Source: Natrialba sp. SSL1
GTDB lineage: Archaea > Halobacteriota > Halobacteria > Halobacteriales > Natrialbaceae
Length of the DNA stretch: 52,341 nucleotides
Assembly (NCBI RefSeq): GCF_001861355.1
Contig: NZ_MASN01000056.1
Location: forward strand, 1-52,341
Direction: 5' to 3'
The translations under genes were made by a program, and so were the position numbers. The stretch's first letter is position 1; each line of letters opens with the position of its first letter. This document shows positions 2,836 through 12,158 of this stretch, piece by piece. The notes below the pieces were generated by a model, which was not told the origin of the DNA, searched no databases, and saw nothing but the letters and a program-made list of their open reading frames with translations.

Positions 2836-3277
2836 ACCACAATATCCCAACGCGGTCGGGAATCTTCGCCCTTCAGGGCGGAGAGGATATCAATCCTGCC
2901 GAGGACGTCGACTGGCAGACGAAAAGCATCGATCGACCGACCATGACCACATTTCGAATTACGGCGGATGGTCGGCTCATAGAAGAGGAGTGGCACACCG
3001 AAGCGGTCCCACCGGAAGACCGGCCATACGCGAGCCGTGACGACGTCGACGAGGACGATTTTCGCTACATGGCCGGCAGTCTGAATCGAGTCCACGACGG
3101 CTGGATCGAACGAGACGACTACCACGGCCGCTTCAAGCTCAAACACTCCTTCGAGGATCTCGAGACACTCGTCACGTATCAAGTGACGTTCACGCACGGG
3201 CAACTCGAGGGCTTCGAGCACTTGCAGTAATCCGTGCGTGTCCGCCGCACCTCAGCGCTTGATTTCGTCCCTACAGC

Positions 3278-3353
3278 GCTCCCGGAGTCTCCGTTGGCGA
3301 GAGACGCCAGTTTTTCAAACTGGAGGCCAGGGGTTCGATTCCCTTCGGGAGCA
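3278..3353 (+). tRNA. tRNA-Glu (TTC anticodon)
   Basis: The acceptor is GCTCCCG/CGGGAGC and the D-stem GTCT/AGAC has a loop carrying GG. The anticodon stem CCAGT/ACTGG carries loop TTTTCAA (anticodon TTC). The T-arm is AGGGG-TTCGATT-CCCTT and the discriminator is A. Length is 76 nt. This is the last canonical tRNA of the array. Downstream units become progressively unlike tRNAs. Confidence 0.85.
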
Positions 3354-3458
3354 CTCGGGGGGCTGGCTCTGACAGCGTTTTCCCGTGTCTGACATAGCGG
3401 GCAGCCACGGATCCGTGACGCTGTCACGGTCGGCTTTCCCCAAGCGTGTGGTCGTCGA

Positions 3459-3518
3459 GGTGGTGCGTTTCTTCGCCCGCAAAGCACACCAACGGGAGTC
3501 ATAGCCCGTCGCACCACC
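3459..3518 (+). ncRNA. Predicted long hairpin upstream of Ro60
   Basis: GGTGGTGCG (3459-3467) pairs perfectly with CGCACCACC (3510-3518). Inside the loop ACGGG pairs with CCCGT. No convincing gene overlaps it. Its 3' arm is shared with the acceptor strand of the aberrant tRNA-Ser-like unit that follows, so the two folds are mutually exclusive. Function unknown. It belongs to the structured non-coding block between the tRNA array and Ro60. Confidence 0.4.
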
Positions 3519-3600
3519 GGTTGCCCGACCGCACGCGGCGACCGTCGAGTCGGAGCGTTACTTCGCCAGGAACTCGCAGGTTCAAATCCTGTCGGTGGCG
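3513..3600 (+). ncRNA. Aberrant tRNA-Ser-like unit (CGA-like)
   Basis: The acceptor strands ACCACCG and CGGTGGC pair at six of seven positions, with A.C at the end. The T-arm is GCAGG-TTCAAAT-CCTGT, the discriminator is G, and the 88-nt length with a GCG/CGC variable arm fits class II. The D-loop lacks the GG pair. The anticodon arm collapses to CCG-TCGAGT-CGG (3 bp, 6-nt loop), so CGA can only be inferred from T33-like spacing. This is either a decayed tRNA-Ser or a tRNA-like structural RNA. It is unlikely to be a working decoder. Confidence 0.45.
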
Positions 3601-3627
3601 CAGTCCATCGAGAACATCCCGGACAAA

Positions 3628-3758
3628 GAGCGTACGAGAGGACGCTCGACACCGATCCCGCTCCGACAGTTTTCCGGTCGCCGTGTCGCCAGTGGCCGTC
3701 GATCTGGAGCAATACGTCGATAGCACTCTACGGGTTCGAATCCCGTCGTTCGCTCCAG
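3628..3758 (+). ncRNA. Candidate tRNA-like structured RNA (second Y-RNA candidate)
   Basis: A perfect T-arm (ACGGG-TTCGAAT-CCCGT, 3730-3746) lies beside an acceptor-like strand CGTTCGCTC that pairs with GAGCGTACG (3628-3636) except for one T.T mismatch. The enclosed segment offers CGACAC/GTGTCG and CCAG/CTGG helices. An alternative fold closes CTGGAGC (3704-3710) with GCTCCAG (3752-3758) around the T-arm. CCA follows the acceptor strand after one base. There is no D-arm or 7-nt anticodon loop. It may be a Y-RNA-like molecule or a rearranged tRNA fragment. Confidence 0.4.
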
Positions 3759-3777
3759 GAATTGTCCGGCCACTCGT

Positions 3778-3908
3778 GTTCCCGTAGCTCAGTCAGGACA
3801 GAGCACCGTCAGAGTGAACTCTGACGAGCCCTCGTTCGGGTCTTCGACCCTCACGAGGACACCGGCCTTCGAGGCCGGGTGTCGCACGTTCGAATCGTGC
3901 CGGGAACG
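3778..3908 (+). ncRNA. Candidate archaeal Y RNA: tRNA body with multi-hairpin insert replacing the anticodon arm
   Basis: A perfect tRNA frame is present: acceptor GTTCCCG/CGGGAAC, TA, D-arm GCTC-AGTCAGGACA-GAGC with A14 and GG, and T-arm GCACG-TTCGAAT-CGTGC. Between the D- and T-arms, instead of 17 nt of anticodon arm plus a variable loop, there are about 79 nt forming three strong hairpins. They are CGTCAGAG-TGAA-CTCTGACG, CCTCGT/ACGAGG capped by GGGTC-TTC-GACCC, and ACACC-GGCCT-TCG-AGGCC(G)GGTGT. There is no 7-nt anticodon loop. The Ro60 gene starts 114 bp downstream on the same strand. Bacterial Y RNAs are known to mimic tRNAs and bind Ro60; by that precedent this is a Y RNA (inference). 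An intron-containing tRNA is the alternative, but I see no exon pairing that rebuilds an anticodon arm. Confidence 0.6.
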
Positions 3909-4021
3909 TCCAGCCGAGCGAAGCGAGGCTGGTTCGGGAAGTTTCTCTCCCGATACTCGCTGCTCACAGAACATGTGGGCAGCTGCGATCGGAGTCGTCT
4001 GTTGCGGCTCCGGGTGATAGT
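3909..4021 (+). other. Structured leader of the Ro60 gene
   Basis: Four further hairpins fill this stretch: CCAGCC/GGCTGG, TCGGGA/TCCCGA, GCTGCTCACA/TGTGGGCAGC (10 bp with one G.T) and GGAGTC/GGCTCC. They could extend the upstream RNA, end its transcription, or regulate Ro60 translation. No gene is seen here. Confidence 0.45.
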
Positions 4022-5647
4022 ATGGAATTCAACACGCCGAAGCAAACGGTCGCGGAGGCAACGCGGACCACCAACTACGAAGGTGGGGAAGCATTCGAGC
4101 CTGCCGACCCTCGACTCGCATTGTACAAGCGCACGATCAATCAGTTGCTGGAAGGATCGTTCTACGAGTCCGATGACGAGCAATTGGCTGCTGTCGTTCA
4201 CCAGTTCGATGCCGCCGCAAACGAAGACCCGGAGTTCGTCCTGAAGCTCGCAGCCTATGCGCGCCAGGAGCTCTACTTGCGGGACATCCCACAAGTGCTA
4301 CTCGTATTGGCGGCCAACGACGATCGGTTCAAGGACGACTCCCCCGAGTCGCTCATCCGCGAATGGGCACCGGCGATCATCCAGCGGATGGACGAGACGG
4401 CCACCGCGCTCGCTGTCCACGATCAGCTGTTCGGTGGAACTGCACCGTGGCCGCTTCGACGCGGGATCGAGGACGCGCTAGTGGAGATGGCCGACGCCTA
4501 CACGCTAGGCAAGTACGATCTGTCGCGGCGCGAGGTGACGCTGCACGACATCTTCAACCGCGTTCACCCCACACCCGTCGACGCCGAGCAGGAAGCGCTC
4601 TTCGAGCGGTTCATGCGTGGCGGACTCGACGACTACCCCGACGTCGACCCGTTGCCAGCGCCGAACACATGGGAGACAGTCATCTCCGAGCGCGGCAACA
4701 CCCAAGACGCCTGGGAACTACTCCTCGAGGACGACGAGTACACGCTACCCATCTTCGCGTCGATCCGGAACCTCCGGAACATACTCGAAGCCGGCGTTCC
4801 GGAGGACACCGTCGTGAATCACCTCGACCTGGAGGCAGTCCGACACGCGCCACTGTACCCGTTCCGGTACTACCAGGCCTACACCGCGCTGCAAGACGCG
4901 GATGTCCAGGCACCGACGATCGAGCAGTGGCTCGAAGACGCAATTGATGTCGCGGTCGAGACGGTGCCTGGCGGATTCGGTGATACCTTTGTCGCGGTCG
5001 ACCTGTCGGGATCGATGGATCAGTCGCTGTCCGCGAACAGCACGCTCCGACTGAAGGAGATCGGTGCGTTGTTCGGTGCGATGCTGGCCGACCAGGGTGC
5101 CGAAGTCGGCGGGTTCGGCGACGACTCCCAGACAGTTCCGATGCACGTCGACACGCCAGTCCTGCAGCGCCAAGCGGCGGTGTTGGCGATCGACGAAGAC
5201 GTCGGGAACTCGACGAACGGCTGGAAGGCAATCGATTACCTCCGCGAGCGAGGTGAGCCCGTCGAACGCATCGTCGTCTTCACCGATATGCAGATCTGGG
5301 ACAACACGCCGTTCACGGCCCGCGATTCCCAGACGGTCAAGGACGCGTTCGATGCGTATCGGGATGAGGTGTCTGCGGACACCGCGCTGTATCTCGTCGA
5401 CCTCGCGGCCTACGGCGACCTGGTGACGCCAGAAGGCTACGAGAACGTCTACAACATCAAGCGTGCCGTGAAACAGGAATTCAACCGCCATATGGCGATT
5501 CAACACAGCCATACGAAGGGACACGAACTCCACGTCGCCCCAGATCCTGACCCAGAGACCATCGACTTTCCAGGAATCGAAGAACTGTACGAACGCTTCC
5601 GGAACGAAATTCCGAAACCGAAATTCGGCCCCGACACAGAGGACTGA
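4022..5647 (+). CDS. rsr: Ro60/Rsr-like TROVE-domain RNA-binding protein
   Basis: At 541 aa this is close to bacterial Rsr length. Residues 1-310 form the helical HEAT-like TROVE ring, including the family-typical N-terminal YEGGEAFEP and the segment LEGSFYES. From about residue 322 a von Willebrand A domain follows, with the MIDAS motif DLSGS at 327-331 and the later metal-site Asp in VVFTDMQIWD. In animals and bacteria Ro60 binds Y RNAs and 3' ends of misfolded RNAs through the ring, and Y RNA controls access. Here it directly follows a tRNA array and a tRNA-like multi-hairpin RNA, which suggests a native RNA partner encoded in cis. The ATG at 4022 fits family starts. No RtcB ligase gene is present in the window. 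Confidence 0.93.
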   Translation: MEFNTPKQTVAEATRTTNYEGGEAFEPADPRLALYKRTINQLLEGSFYESDDEQLAAVVHQFDAAANEDPEFVLKLAAYARQELYLRDIPQVLLVLAANDDRFKDDSPESLIREWAPAIIQRMDETATALAVHDQLFGGTAPWPLRRGIEDALVEMADAYTLGKYDLSRREVTLHDIFNRVHPTPVDAEQEALFERFMRGGLDDYPDVDPLPAPNTWETVISERGNTQDAWELLLEDDEYTLPIFASIRNLRNILEAGVPEDTVVNHLDLEAVRHAPLYPFRYYQAYTALQDADVQAPTIEQWLEDAIDVAVETVPGGFGDTFVAVDLSGSMDQSLSANSTLRLKEIGALFGAMLADQGAEVGGFGDDSQTVPMHVDTPVLQRQAAVLAIDEDVGNSTNGWKAIDYLRERGEPVERIVVFTDMQIWDNTPFTARDSQTVKDAFDAYRDEVSADTALYLVDLAAYGDLVTPEGYENVYNIKRAVKQEFNRHMAIQHSHTKGHELHVAPDPDPETIDFPGIEELYERFRNEIPKPKFGPDTED

Positions 5648-5652
5648 AACTC

Positions 5653-10390: not shown

Positions 10391-10537
10391 TTGACATCCT
10401 CCACACGGCTGAAGCCGTGGGATTCCCCCGTTGGGATATTGTGGTTTACGACGTGATCTGTTCTTGAGGTGCAAACGCACCAGTTTCCTTGTCAAACAGG
10501 AACGTCGCTGGCTGTGCCAACCAGCCGTTACTCCTAT
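10391..10537 (-). mobile_element. 3' remnant of an IS1341-type element
   Basis: On the minus strand, the last 30 tnpB codons are followed by right-end sequence with an ACGGCTTCAGCCGT hairpin and the terminal GGAGGATGTCAA (TCAA end). Homology to the 1411 element stops at 10537, where the next element's left end begins. Confidence 0.65.
10446..10537 (-). pseudogene. tnpB: tnpB C-terminal fragment
   Basis: It encodes only SNGWLAQPATFLFDKETGAF and APQEQITS before the stop, nearly identical to the end of the tnpB at 1555. All catalytic domains are missing. The intact right-end hairpin beside it could still give an omega-RNA-like transcript. Confidence 0.75.
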
Positions 10538-10545
10538 AAGGTCTT

Positions 10546-12158
10546 GATTCAGCGAGAGAATCCCGCCCTTCCCGTGAGTGACGAGCGTTCCGACGCCCTG
10601 TCGGAACCGAGGAGCGATCAGGGCAGGAGTGAATCGCGTCAGATCCAGTGACAAACCACCACCGGACTGGCAGGCCTGAGTCTCCACCAGTCGGTATCAG
10701 ATTCACTTTCACTGCGGATGGCTGACCTTCACCACGGGTCAGCTCGAATACCAAACTGCGAATGAAGCGTACCAACATGTTCACCGTGCGTCCGCTCTCC
10801 GAAGGTGGGGAGAACCTGCTCCGGGACCTGTTGGACGCTTCTGCCGCTCTCTGGAACGAAACCAACTACCAACGCCTCATACGGTACAACGATGAAGACG
10901 GTTACGAGGACGAAGACGTGTGGGATGCAGATACTGGCCGACTCGAAGGCCGGTACAAAGGCGTCCTTGGGGCGTCGACCGCCCAACAGGTGATCCGGAA
11001 GAACTCAGAAGCGTGGCGTGGCTTCTTCCGACTCAAAGAGCAGTACCACGACGACTCGAATACATCGGTCACGGAACACCCCGAACCGCCGGGATTCCGG
11101 GGCAACGAAGACGACGGGCGGGAACTCAAGACCGTCATTCGCAACACCTCGTACACTGTCGAGTGGGGTGACCGCTCCCGACTTGAGATACTGGTCGGGA
11201 GCGAATTGAAAGACAGATACGATCACACCGGGCGTCTCCAGCTGGAAATCGCTGGCGACCCGAACTGGCCCGACTACGAGAAACAGGGCCGGTTGGATCT
11301 GTGGTACGACGAGACTGATTGCACGTTCAGGGCTTCGCAACCCGTGACTGTTTCTGACGATGCACGGGAGACTCCACTGGCTTCCGGGAAGGCCGCTCTG
11401 GACATCGGTGCGAACAATCTCGTCGCCTGTACCACGATGGCCGGCCAACAATATCTGTATGAAGGCCGCAAGTTGTTCCAGCGATTCCGCGACACGACGC
11501 GCCACATTGCTGAATTACAGTCGAAACTTGAAGATGGTCGGTACAGTAGCGAGCGTATCCAGCGATTGTACCGCAAGCGCACCCGTCGCCGTGACCACGC
11601 CCAAGAAGCGTTGTGTCGTAATTTGCTGGACCGACTGTACGCCGAAGGGGTCGATACCGTGTATATCGGGGGCCTAACTGACATCCTCGAGACGCACTGG
11701 TCAGTCGAGACGAACGCCAAGACGCACAACTTCTGGGCGTTCAAGCAATTCACTGAACGGCTGGCGTGTACCGCTGAGGAGTACGGTATCTCGGTCGAGG
11801 TTCGGTCAGAAGCGTGGACCAGTCAGGAGTGCCCGCAGTGTGGTTCGACAGACCGAACGACGCGGCAACAGGACACACTCACCTGTCCGTGTGGGTTCGA
11901 GAGCCACGCCGACCTTACGGCGTCAGAGACGTTCCTAATGCGGCAGACAGAACAGGCAGTCAGGCCGATGGCACGGCCCGTGCGGTTCGAGTGGGATGAC
12001 CACGAATGGTCGGAGTCACCACGCTCTCTCCATCCTAAAGAACAGCGCACAGACCCGAGTACCGTCCATCGTGACGGGAATATTGCTTCCGGGGGGACTT
12101 AGACCGGCTGAGACTCCCACGGAGGAAACCGCGCCGTTCACGGCGAGGAGGATGTCAT
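10546..12158 (+). mobile_element. IS1341-type element nested in an older remnant
   Basis: The left end holds a large imperfect hairpin from CCCGCCCTTCC (10560s) to AGGGCAGGAGTGAATC (about 10635). The right end has CGCCG-TTCA-CGGCG and GAGGAGGATGTCAT at about 12158. It begins where the remnant at 10391-10537 is cut, so it inserted there later. Exact ends are uncertain. Confidence 0.5.
10762..12102 (+). CDS. tnpB: TnpB-like protein, divergent, RuvC-II glutamate not recognisable
   Basis: This 446-aa protein of a different subgroup begins [18 protein letters not shown]. RuvC-I is ALDIGANN (Asp about 214). The RuvC-II position reads [11 protein letters not shown] with no Glu at the usual site. 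The zinc finger is CPQC and CPCG, the second pair being CxC rather than CxxC. The last Asp is in [10 protein letters not shown]. The C-terminal tail is basic and proline-rich. It is probably an RNA-guided DNA-binding protein with changed or lost cleavage. Confidence 0.8.

Follow-up and report, generated by a model that had tools for sequence, protein, structure and literature searches.

Tandem Y RNA candidates upstream of a Ro60 gene in the haloarchaeon Natrialba sp. SSL1

Y RNAs have been described in animals and bacteria. Whether Ro60 proteins of archaea are accompanied by such RNAs as well is the question raised by a 52,341-nucleotide stretch of DNA from Natrialba sp. SSL1 (contig NZ_MASN01000056.1, positions 1 to 52,341), which is referred to as the window. 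It contains a TROVE/Ro60 gene, for which the original prediction had proposed an archaeal Ro60–Y RNA system in cis, with the tRNA-like element at positions 3778–3908 as the Y RNA. Our comparison with related loci indicates that the locus probably encodes an archaeal Ro60 ribonucleoprotein system with tandem Y RNA candidates in cis. The postulated system is thus well supported by sequence, but the RNA named as its partner was wrong: three predicted RNAs located upstream of it (3445–3776), which had been passed over, represent the better Y RNA candidates. No published description of archaeal Y RNAs was found in the literature other than subscription papers.

Y RNA candidates upstream of Ro60

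The candidates form a tandem trio upstream of a tRNA-Arg gene and have a two-part stem in common, which is interrupted by an asymmetric UCGA / nnUUUUC loop. They were recognized by a motif scan and by the models R1 and R2, which are described below together with the alignments A1 to A3.

3445–3535, + strand: Y RNA candidate Ya; two-part Ro60-type stem with a UCGA / GGUUGCC internal loop, hairpin CGGGAGUCAUAGCCCG inside, no T-arm
3535–3684, + strand: Y RNA candidate Yb; motif scan, R2 match, A3 covariation
3689–3776, + strand: Y RNA candidate Yc; motif scan, R1 match, covariation, fold z of -4.4

In Yb, the two-part stem (GGCGACCG-UCGA-GUCGGAGCG / CGCUCCGAC-AGUUUUC-CGGUCGCC) encloses a long third arm in addition to a T-arm (GCAGG-UUCAAAU-CCUGU) and a short acceptor-like hairpin, whereas the stem of Yc (GUGGCCG-UCGAU-CUGGAGC / GCUCCAG-GAAUUGUC-CGGCCAC) encloses a T-arm alone (ACGGG-UUCGAAU-CCCGU).

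The comparison was based on a main sample of 391 Halobacteria genomes and a wider phylum sample of 392 genomes; in the following, L-numbers denote individual loci or sequences compared, for which a stretch of 9 kb was taken, and G-numbers denote genomes. A motif derived from repeated units read in the upstream DNA of relatives was searched for in the Ro60 loci. Its outer helix is followed by UCGA and an inner helix (often GGAGC); after a strand resembling AUACUUC and a variable interior, the second strand of the inner helix, nnUUUUC, and the second strand of the outer helix complete the unit. At a score of at least 17, 107 copies were found within 244,516 bases upstream on the Ro60 strand of 47 sequences, as compared to none on the opposite strand and none downstream or elsewhere in the loci (177,294 bases). 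Where the scan found any copies, their number ranged between one and five per locus. In the window, Yb and Yc were caught, but not Ya, which was found by the model.

Three alignments were compiled from 62 copies differing mutually by approximately 5% or more, namely, A1 (26 short copies), A2 (10 permuted-tRNA copies), and A3 (19 middle-class copies); the far-upstream copies, along with some further long ones, were excluded. Model R1 was built from A1, and its companion R2 recognizes the permuted-tRNA copies. Ya reached 65.7 bits with R1 (E 5.9e-15), being itself no training row of this model, although relatives of it were, and Yc, which is a training row, reached 82.2 bits (E 2.8e-19). The match of Yc stops 1 nt short of tRNA-Arg. 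Yb was matched by R2 with 67.4 bits (E 7.6e-18). Fold stability was expressed as z and amounted to -3.2 for Ya.

Covariation was evaluated against 500 shuffles per alignment and against slid alignments. In A1, 91.3% of cells were paired, both sides had changed in 18 of 22 pairs, and the covariation score was 0.550 versus 0.147 in shuffled and at most 0.138 in slid alignments. The corresponding values were 97.9%, 13 of 33 pairs, and 0.318 versus 0.155 (shuffled) for A2, and 90.6%, 15 of 34 pairs, and 0.284 versus 0.170 (shuffled) for A3. For all three measures, the values of A1 to A3 were reached by none of the 500 shuffles and were also above the slid controls. Further pair types were weaker, being reached by 10 of 500 shuffles for A2 and by 59 of 500 for A3. 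Pairing was also less complete in single helices: the acceptor-like helix of A3 was paired in 64% of cells as aligned, other sequences forming a helix in a different register by eye, and the T-arm helix of A1 in 71%, several rows having none.

The occurrence of the RNAs follows that of the protein. TROVE was found in 43 of the 391 Halobacteria genomes, and R1 matched 52 genomes at E 0.01. The genomes containing matches with E ≤ 6e-6 (97 in total) are precisely the 43 with TROVE, and every such match shares contig and strand with the TROVE-domain match and lies upstream of it, at a distance of 230–2953 bases. The original prediction had proposed conservation beside other archaeal Ro60 genes as a check of its own element; applied to the upstream RNAs with the Ro60-type stem, this check was passed, since a strong R1 match precedes 46 of the 47 TROVE genes in this sample. 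In the one remaining case, G268 (L049), the open frame comprises only 282 aa. The rows of A1 come from 19 of the R1-matched sequences, and many of the others are near-identical to those rows; nevertheless, G234 (L077, 48.5% Ro60 identity), which was outside the training set, still matched R1 at 2.6e-8. Locus L078 features Ro60 and a Y RNA candidate with no tRNA in its 9 kb, indicating that the RNA goes with Ro60 and not with the tRNA cluster.

Further RNAs of approximately 150 nt, having the same Ro60-type stem and a non-tRNA interior, were noticed 2–4 kb upstream of Ro60 in L057 (6255–6416), L058 (6047–6196), L059 (7803–7958), L061 (7995–8149), and L038 (3473–3622). The one tested, that of L058, had no Rfam match up to E 1.

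The tRNA-Arg gene, the Ro60 gene, and their surroundings

The element originally nominated as the Y RNA lies between the trio and Ro60. The features of this region are as follows:

3778–3908, + strand: tRNA-Arg(UCG) gene with insert; acceptor stem 3778–3784/3901–3907, D-arm 3787–3804, anticodon arm 3862–3878, T-arm 3884–3900; based on comparison with the plain tRNA-Arg(UCG) of relatives
3806–3861, + strand: 56-nt insert with two hairpins, separating the D-arm from the anticodon arm in tRNA-Arg; based on comparison with relatives
3990–4012, + strand: conserved hairpin immediately 5' of GGUGAU and the Ro60 start codon; based on alignment A6
4022–5647, + strand: TROVE/Ro60 gene, 541 aa; PF05731 and alignments; residues 1–480 family-like, C-terminus replaced
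5459–5644, + strand: foreign 3' end of the Ro60 gene; based on blastn

The tRNA arms claimed for 3778–3908 are present, with acceptor, D-, and T-stems of 7 bp (GUUCCCG/CGGGAAC), 4 bp, and 5 bp, respectively, and the predicted fold of the segment is much more stable than that of 200 shuffles (-71.0 kcal/mol versus a mean of -47.2 kcal/mol, z -5.9). The anticodon arm, by contrast, is not replaced by three hairpins, as had been assumed, because the third of these hairpins is the intact anticodon arm itself (CCGGC-CUUCGAG-GCCGG, 3862–3878, anticodon UCG). All arms of a canonical tRNA-Arg(UCG) are therefore present, yet 56 additional nucleotides precede the anticodon arm. Among the 47 sequences, the pattern could be resolved in 40, of which 31 carry a plain tRNA-Arg(UCG) and nine, including the window, an insert of 50–57 nt before the anticodon arm. 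In the conservation check that the original prediction had set for its own element, the insert-bearing unit thus fares poorly. Two of the seven remaining sequences (L062, L052) lack the insert by eye, and five (L078, L049, L063, L064, L077) show no tRNA-Arg there. The other carriers are L051, L043, L040, L074, L070, L061, L071, and L059; the inserted hairpins resemble one another across all nine, and the locus is otherwise similar with or without the insert. Among the best six candidates for each of the nine insert-bearing sequences, no bulge-helix-bulge was found whose splicing would restore tRNA-Arg, and many pairings were weak. Judged by comparison with the plain tRNA-Arg(UCG) of relatives, the element is a modified tRNA gene, and it was rejected as a Y RNA on the same grounds. 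In L061 and L038, the tRNA-Arg region upstream of Ro60 also seems to hold a T-loop insertion.

The predicted TROVE/Ro60 gene was verified (PF05731, E 1.2e-19, 71.3 bits versus a cut-off of 23), but it is not full length in the sense originally claimed, as homology ends at residue 480 of 541 and the C-terminus is not that of the family. DNA similarity to other Ro60 plasmids, as determined by blastn, ends at approximately position 5458, and pieces resembling IS5-type transposase and DUF6516 genes were found around it. Furthermore, the tRNA-Gly gene located 3' of Ro60 in most of the loci displayed is absent after the window copy. Within the vWA region, DLSGSM and TDMQ were found, whereas the SGWS segment is gone, and the vWA_Ro60 model reached 24.6 bits, which is below its cut-off of 27.7. 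A structure was predicted for the intact relative L091, not for the window copy (mean pLDDT 76.3). In the comparison of this model by VIA-align, the top ten entries were all Ro60/TROVE (Z 18.6–26.7), among them a TROVE crystal structure (9kop, Z 26.7), human Ro60, Deinococcus Rsr, Ro60 of the Thermus phage phiLo (9l5y), and further entries for Ro autoantigens. The next entries, at Z 11, were unrelated vWA domains. The Ro60 fold, consisting of a helical ring and a vWA domain, is thus matched by the predicted model of L091, a result that applies to this relative and not to the window copy. For three Ro60 proteins submitted to PADLOC, no defence family was assigned.

The hairpin in front of the Ro60 start codon was paired in 98.9% of cells of alignment A6 (26 distinct sequences including the window), and two of its seven pairs had changed on both sides, a count reached by 6 of 500 shuffles. 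It may represent a cis-regulatory element adding control of Ro60 translation.

Ro60 loci lie in tRNA clusters, with up to 31 tRNAs called by ARAGORN within 9 kb, and many of them are located on plasmids. The link between Ro60 and tRNA clusters is itself already in print: in the text consulted, a TROVE protein is reported for 20 of 29 archaeal tRNA clusters, which are the same halophile clusters (PMC6333295). That study counts pseudogenes and introns, and its text as consulted makes no mention of Y RNA. Likewise, tRNAs and a TROVE gene are carried by the Borgs of Methanoperedens, which are extrachromosomal elements of archaea, and the term 'Y RNA' occurs once in the paper describing them, in the reference list (PMC11208441).

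3278–3354, + strand: tRNA-Glu(UUC)-like gene closely preceding the Y RNA candidates; ARAGORN, Rfam tRNA 36.7 bits

This tRNA-Glu(UUC)-like gene has a G at position 8 and an odd D-arm. Between tRNA-Met and this gene, a small open reading frame region (2943–3230) is conserved at the DNA level in 17 other sequences (L046 and L079 being one record), and no Pfam family was found in it above the cut-off. The RNA family sot0042, which comprises sense overlapping transcripts, was matched twice, at 2711–2884 and 10401–10584.

Permuted tRNA mimicry and relation to known Y RNAs

A complete permuted-tRNA copy was found near Ro60 in 22 of 46 loci (R2 116–154 bits; 10 of these copies are training rows and 12 are not). 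Their modules follow the order T-arm, acceptor hairpin closed by a loop, and D-arm, corresponding to a circularly permuted tRNA. Elsewhere in the 46 loci, R2 gave weak matches (22–30 bits); many of these fell into tRNA clusters, and a single one, in L037, was on the opposite strand. For bacterial YrlA, the structure of the Salmonella RNA (6CU1) is described as superposing on tRNA given circular permutation (PMC11472068, in the part consulted), and the basal stem is described as binding Rsr, with the D/T/acceptor-like domain binding PNPase (PMC8394870, likewise in part). The archaeal RNAs resemble YrlA (RF02553, 6CU1) in that their 5' and 3' ends pair into a stem split by an asymmetric loop, in the circularly permuted order of T-arm, closed acceptor hairpin, and D-arm in the permuted copies, and in being encoded beside Ro60. 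Unlike YrlA, they are far below the Rfam cut-off, occur one to five per locus, and differ in their modules, many having a T-arm only or none; moreover, they lie in tRNA clusters and not in an rtcBA operon. The Rfam model RF02553 was searched in 14 loci, 10 of them with the permuted type, and matched at full length in L003 (32.4 bits, E 0.0028), L025 (30.7 bits, E 0.0084), and L004 (28.6 bits, E 0.035). The L003 match to Rfam YrlA keeps T-arm, acceptor hairpin, and D-arm in register. In the window, an Rfam search at gathering cut-offs returned tRNA and sot0042 matches alone and no Y RNA.

Vertebrate Y RNAs carry CGA at the stem bulge. Their Rfam family was not among the matches in the Rfam scan of the window. 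As in the vertebrate stem, the archaeal helix is broken by bulges on both strands, but its internal loop is 4/7 compared to 1/3 in vertebrates, where the Ro60-binding stem is described as a 7-bp helix with one bulged C and a 3-nt bulge opposite (PMC4726728, in the part consulted). In the consulted parts of PMC4726728 and PMC8394870, a Ro60 ortholog with a Y RNA is described for the Rsr–Y RNA–PNPase complex of Deinococcus radiodurans (RYPER). The archaeal locus is similar in coupling a Ro60 protein with Y RNA candidates and dissimilar in that no RNase PH/PNPase gene was found in the window genome. This genome (99.51% complete) gave no match to the RNase_PH family, while the same search matched in 12 of 14 controls, and in this respect the setting also differs from that of YrlA. 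RNB (RNase R-like) and RtcB are present.

Outside the Halobacteria, support for Y RNAs is weaker. TROVE was found in 14 of the 392 genomes of the phylum sample, five of which, labeled family f16, are by this label related to the window at the phylum level only. In all five, R2 matched beside the start of the TROVE frame (17–32 bits). A looser stem scan detected two-part stems with 13 of 13 Watson–Crick pairs just upstream of TROVE, two each in L084 and L085 and one in L086; the antisense strand of the five loci yielded no such stem. In L084 and L085, the second stem falls within the longest frame, yet before the inner start used by L086, and L085 has an additional weaker stem farther upstream. 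By eye, L087 has a stem with one mismatch and L088 a YrlA-like RNA, the latter being matched by Rfam YrlA over part of the model (33.0 bits, E 0.0027). Three distant Ro60 relatives (29–30% identity) were also found on IMG/VR viral contigs (L131–L133); R1 gave no match and R2 one match of 15.8 bits in these loci, hence no clear Y RNA was detected by these models.

Alternative explanations and proposed function

Several observations weigh against an archaeal Ro60–Y RNA system and have to be set beside the evidence in its favor. The R1 cut-off of E ≤ 6e-6 was chosen after the gap up to 5.9e-5 had been seen, nine genomes without TROVE gave weak R1 matches (best 5.9e-5, G237), and since R1 and R2 were built from the same loci, their scores on near-identical loci are partly circular. 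Lowering the motif score to 16 added one match downstream of Ro60 (L061, 16.5). RF02553 missed 7 of the 10 permuted-type loci scanned, its gathering score of 69 bits was not reached (best 33.0 in L088 and 32.4 in L003), and in the window it gave 17.2 bits (E 1.1) off register. As R2 also matches neighboring tRNA pairs at 22–28 bits (in the window, 555–676 with 26.7 bits), the 17–32-bit matches outside the class are weak alone; across whole genomes, the TROVE-side match ranked first in three of the five and second in two. The looser stem scan, which was designed after viewing the sequences, failed to detect any stem in L088, and the only one it detected in L087 was off-site. Finally, the RNAs of the window are simplified, with a T-arm but no complete permuted mimic in Yb and Yc and no T-arm in Ya. 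The family protein usually has 509 aa, and its final 29 residues, including the SGWS motif, are swapped for 61 others in the window Ro60. In L068, the Ro60 frame is stopped at codon 31 though the upstream Y RNA candidates are kept. Reduced window RNAs, the lost C-terminus, and the stop in L068 suggest that some copies may be decaying.

Other explanations account for parts of these data. That 3778–3908 is itself the Y RNA, with three hairpins in place of the anticodon arm, would agree with its real and stable structure directly before Ro60 and with the retention of the insert in nine sequences. It is nevertheless very unlikely, given the intact anticodon arm and the plain tRNA-Arg(UCG) in most resolved sequences; the element also lacks a paired-end stem with UCGA / UUUU loop, its ends forming a tRNA acceptor stem. 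The permuted copies, for their part, might be tRNA genes in permuted or disrupted form whose splicing yields working tRNAs, with the flanking stem serving as splicing motif, and the order of T-arm, acceptor 3' strand, loop, acceptor 5' strand, and D-arm is indeed that of a permuted tRNA gene. We consider this highly improbable, because no separate anticodon stem was seen by eye in A2, the loop that separates the flanking helices is asymmetric (4/7), in place of two 3-nt bulges around 4 bp, and sister RNAs carry the same stem around quite different enclosed modules.

The location of the elements inside tRNA clusters, many of them plasmid-borne, and the reduced copies of the window would also be expected for decaying tRNA genes of a mobile cluster that are kept beside Ro60 by chance. 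However, the stem covaries strongly and is no part of a tRNA, strong R1 matches coincide with the presence of Ro60, and L078 has its candidate beside Ro60 though no tRNA lies within 9 kb, which leaves this explanation with the slightest of chances. Cis-acting leaders controlling either Ro60 or cluster read-through, as opposed to free Ro60 partners, would explain why the elements are always upstream on the Ro60 strand, and a separate conserved hairpin does lie at the Ro60 start codon. Several diverse copies per locus, some of them 2–4 kb upstream past many tRNAs, do not fit this role well, and the YrlA-like tRNA mimicry suits a free RNA better; we therefore regard leaders as highly improbable.

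For the Ro60 ribonucleoprotein system with tandem Y RNA candidates, the following mode of operation is proposed. A tandem set of RNAs would be encoded upstream on the Ro60 strand, each forming its stem from its own 5' and 3' ends (outer helix, UCGA / nnUUUUC loop, inner helix) and bearing a different module at the far end. The RNAs would be co-transcribed with the surrounding tRNA cluster and, as the end of the Yc match 1 nt before tRNA-Arg suggests, released partly by tRNA-processing enzymes. The candidates are Y RNA-like by architecture, and their binding by Ro60 is putative; architecture, conservation, and linkage suggest that Ro60 would bind the stem. By analogy with YrlA, the module may gate the Ro60 ring and tether a partner, or it may occupy tRNA-binding enzymes. 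A bacterial-style partnership with PNPase is unlikely in the window genome because no RNase PH family gene was found there. With RNB and RtcB present, an RNase R-like enzyme or tRNA enzymes become candidates for the partner, the RNase R-like (RNB) enzyme as Ro60 partner being speculation. More generally, and as a tentative proposal that may well prove wrong, archaeal Ro60 islands, whether on plasmids or chromosomes, could combine tandem Y RNAs, one Ro60-binding stem, and varied effector modules, many of them tRNA mimics; carried within tRNA clusters, in cells that lack PNPase, such islands might act as a kit for tRNA damage or counter-defence, the modules being interchangeable and steering Ro60 to different partners.

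If the Ro60 system proposed here is correct, the partnership of Ro60 and Y RNA would span three domains of life, and tRNA mimicry by permuted Y RNAs would be no bacterial oddity. Halophiles would offer natural sets of Y RNAs built on one common stem, on which the modular model of Y RNA function could readily be tested. The printed but unexplained tie of archaeal tRNA clusters to TROVE would thereby gain a concrete, testable content.

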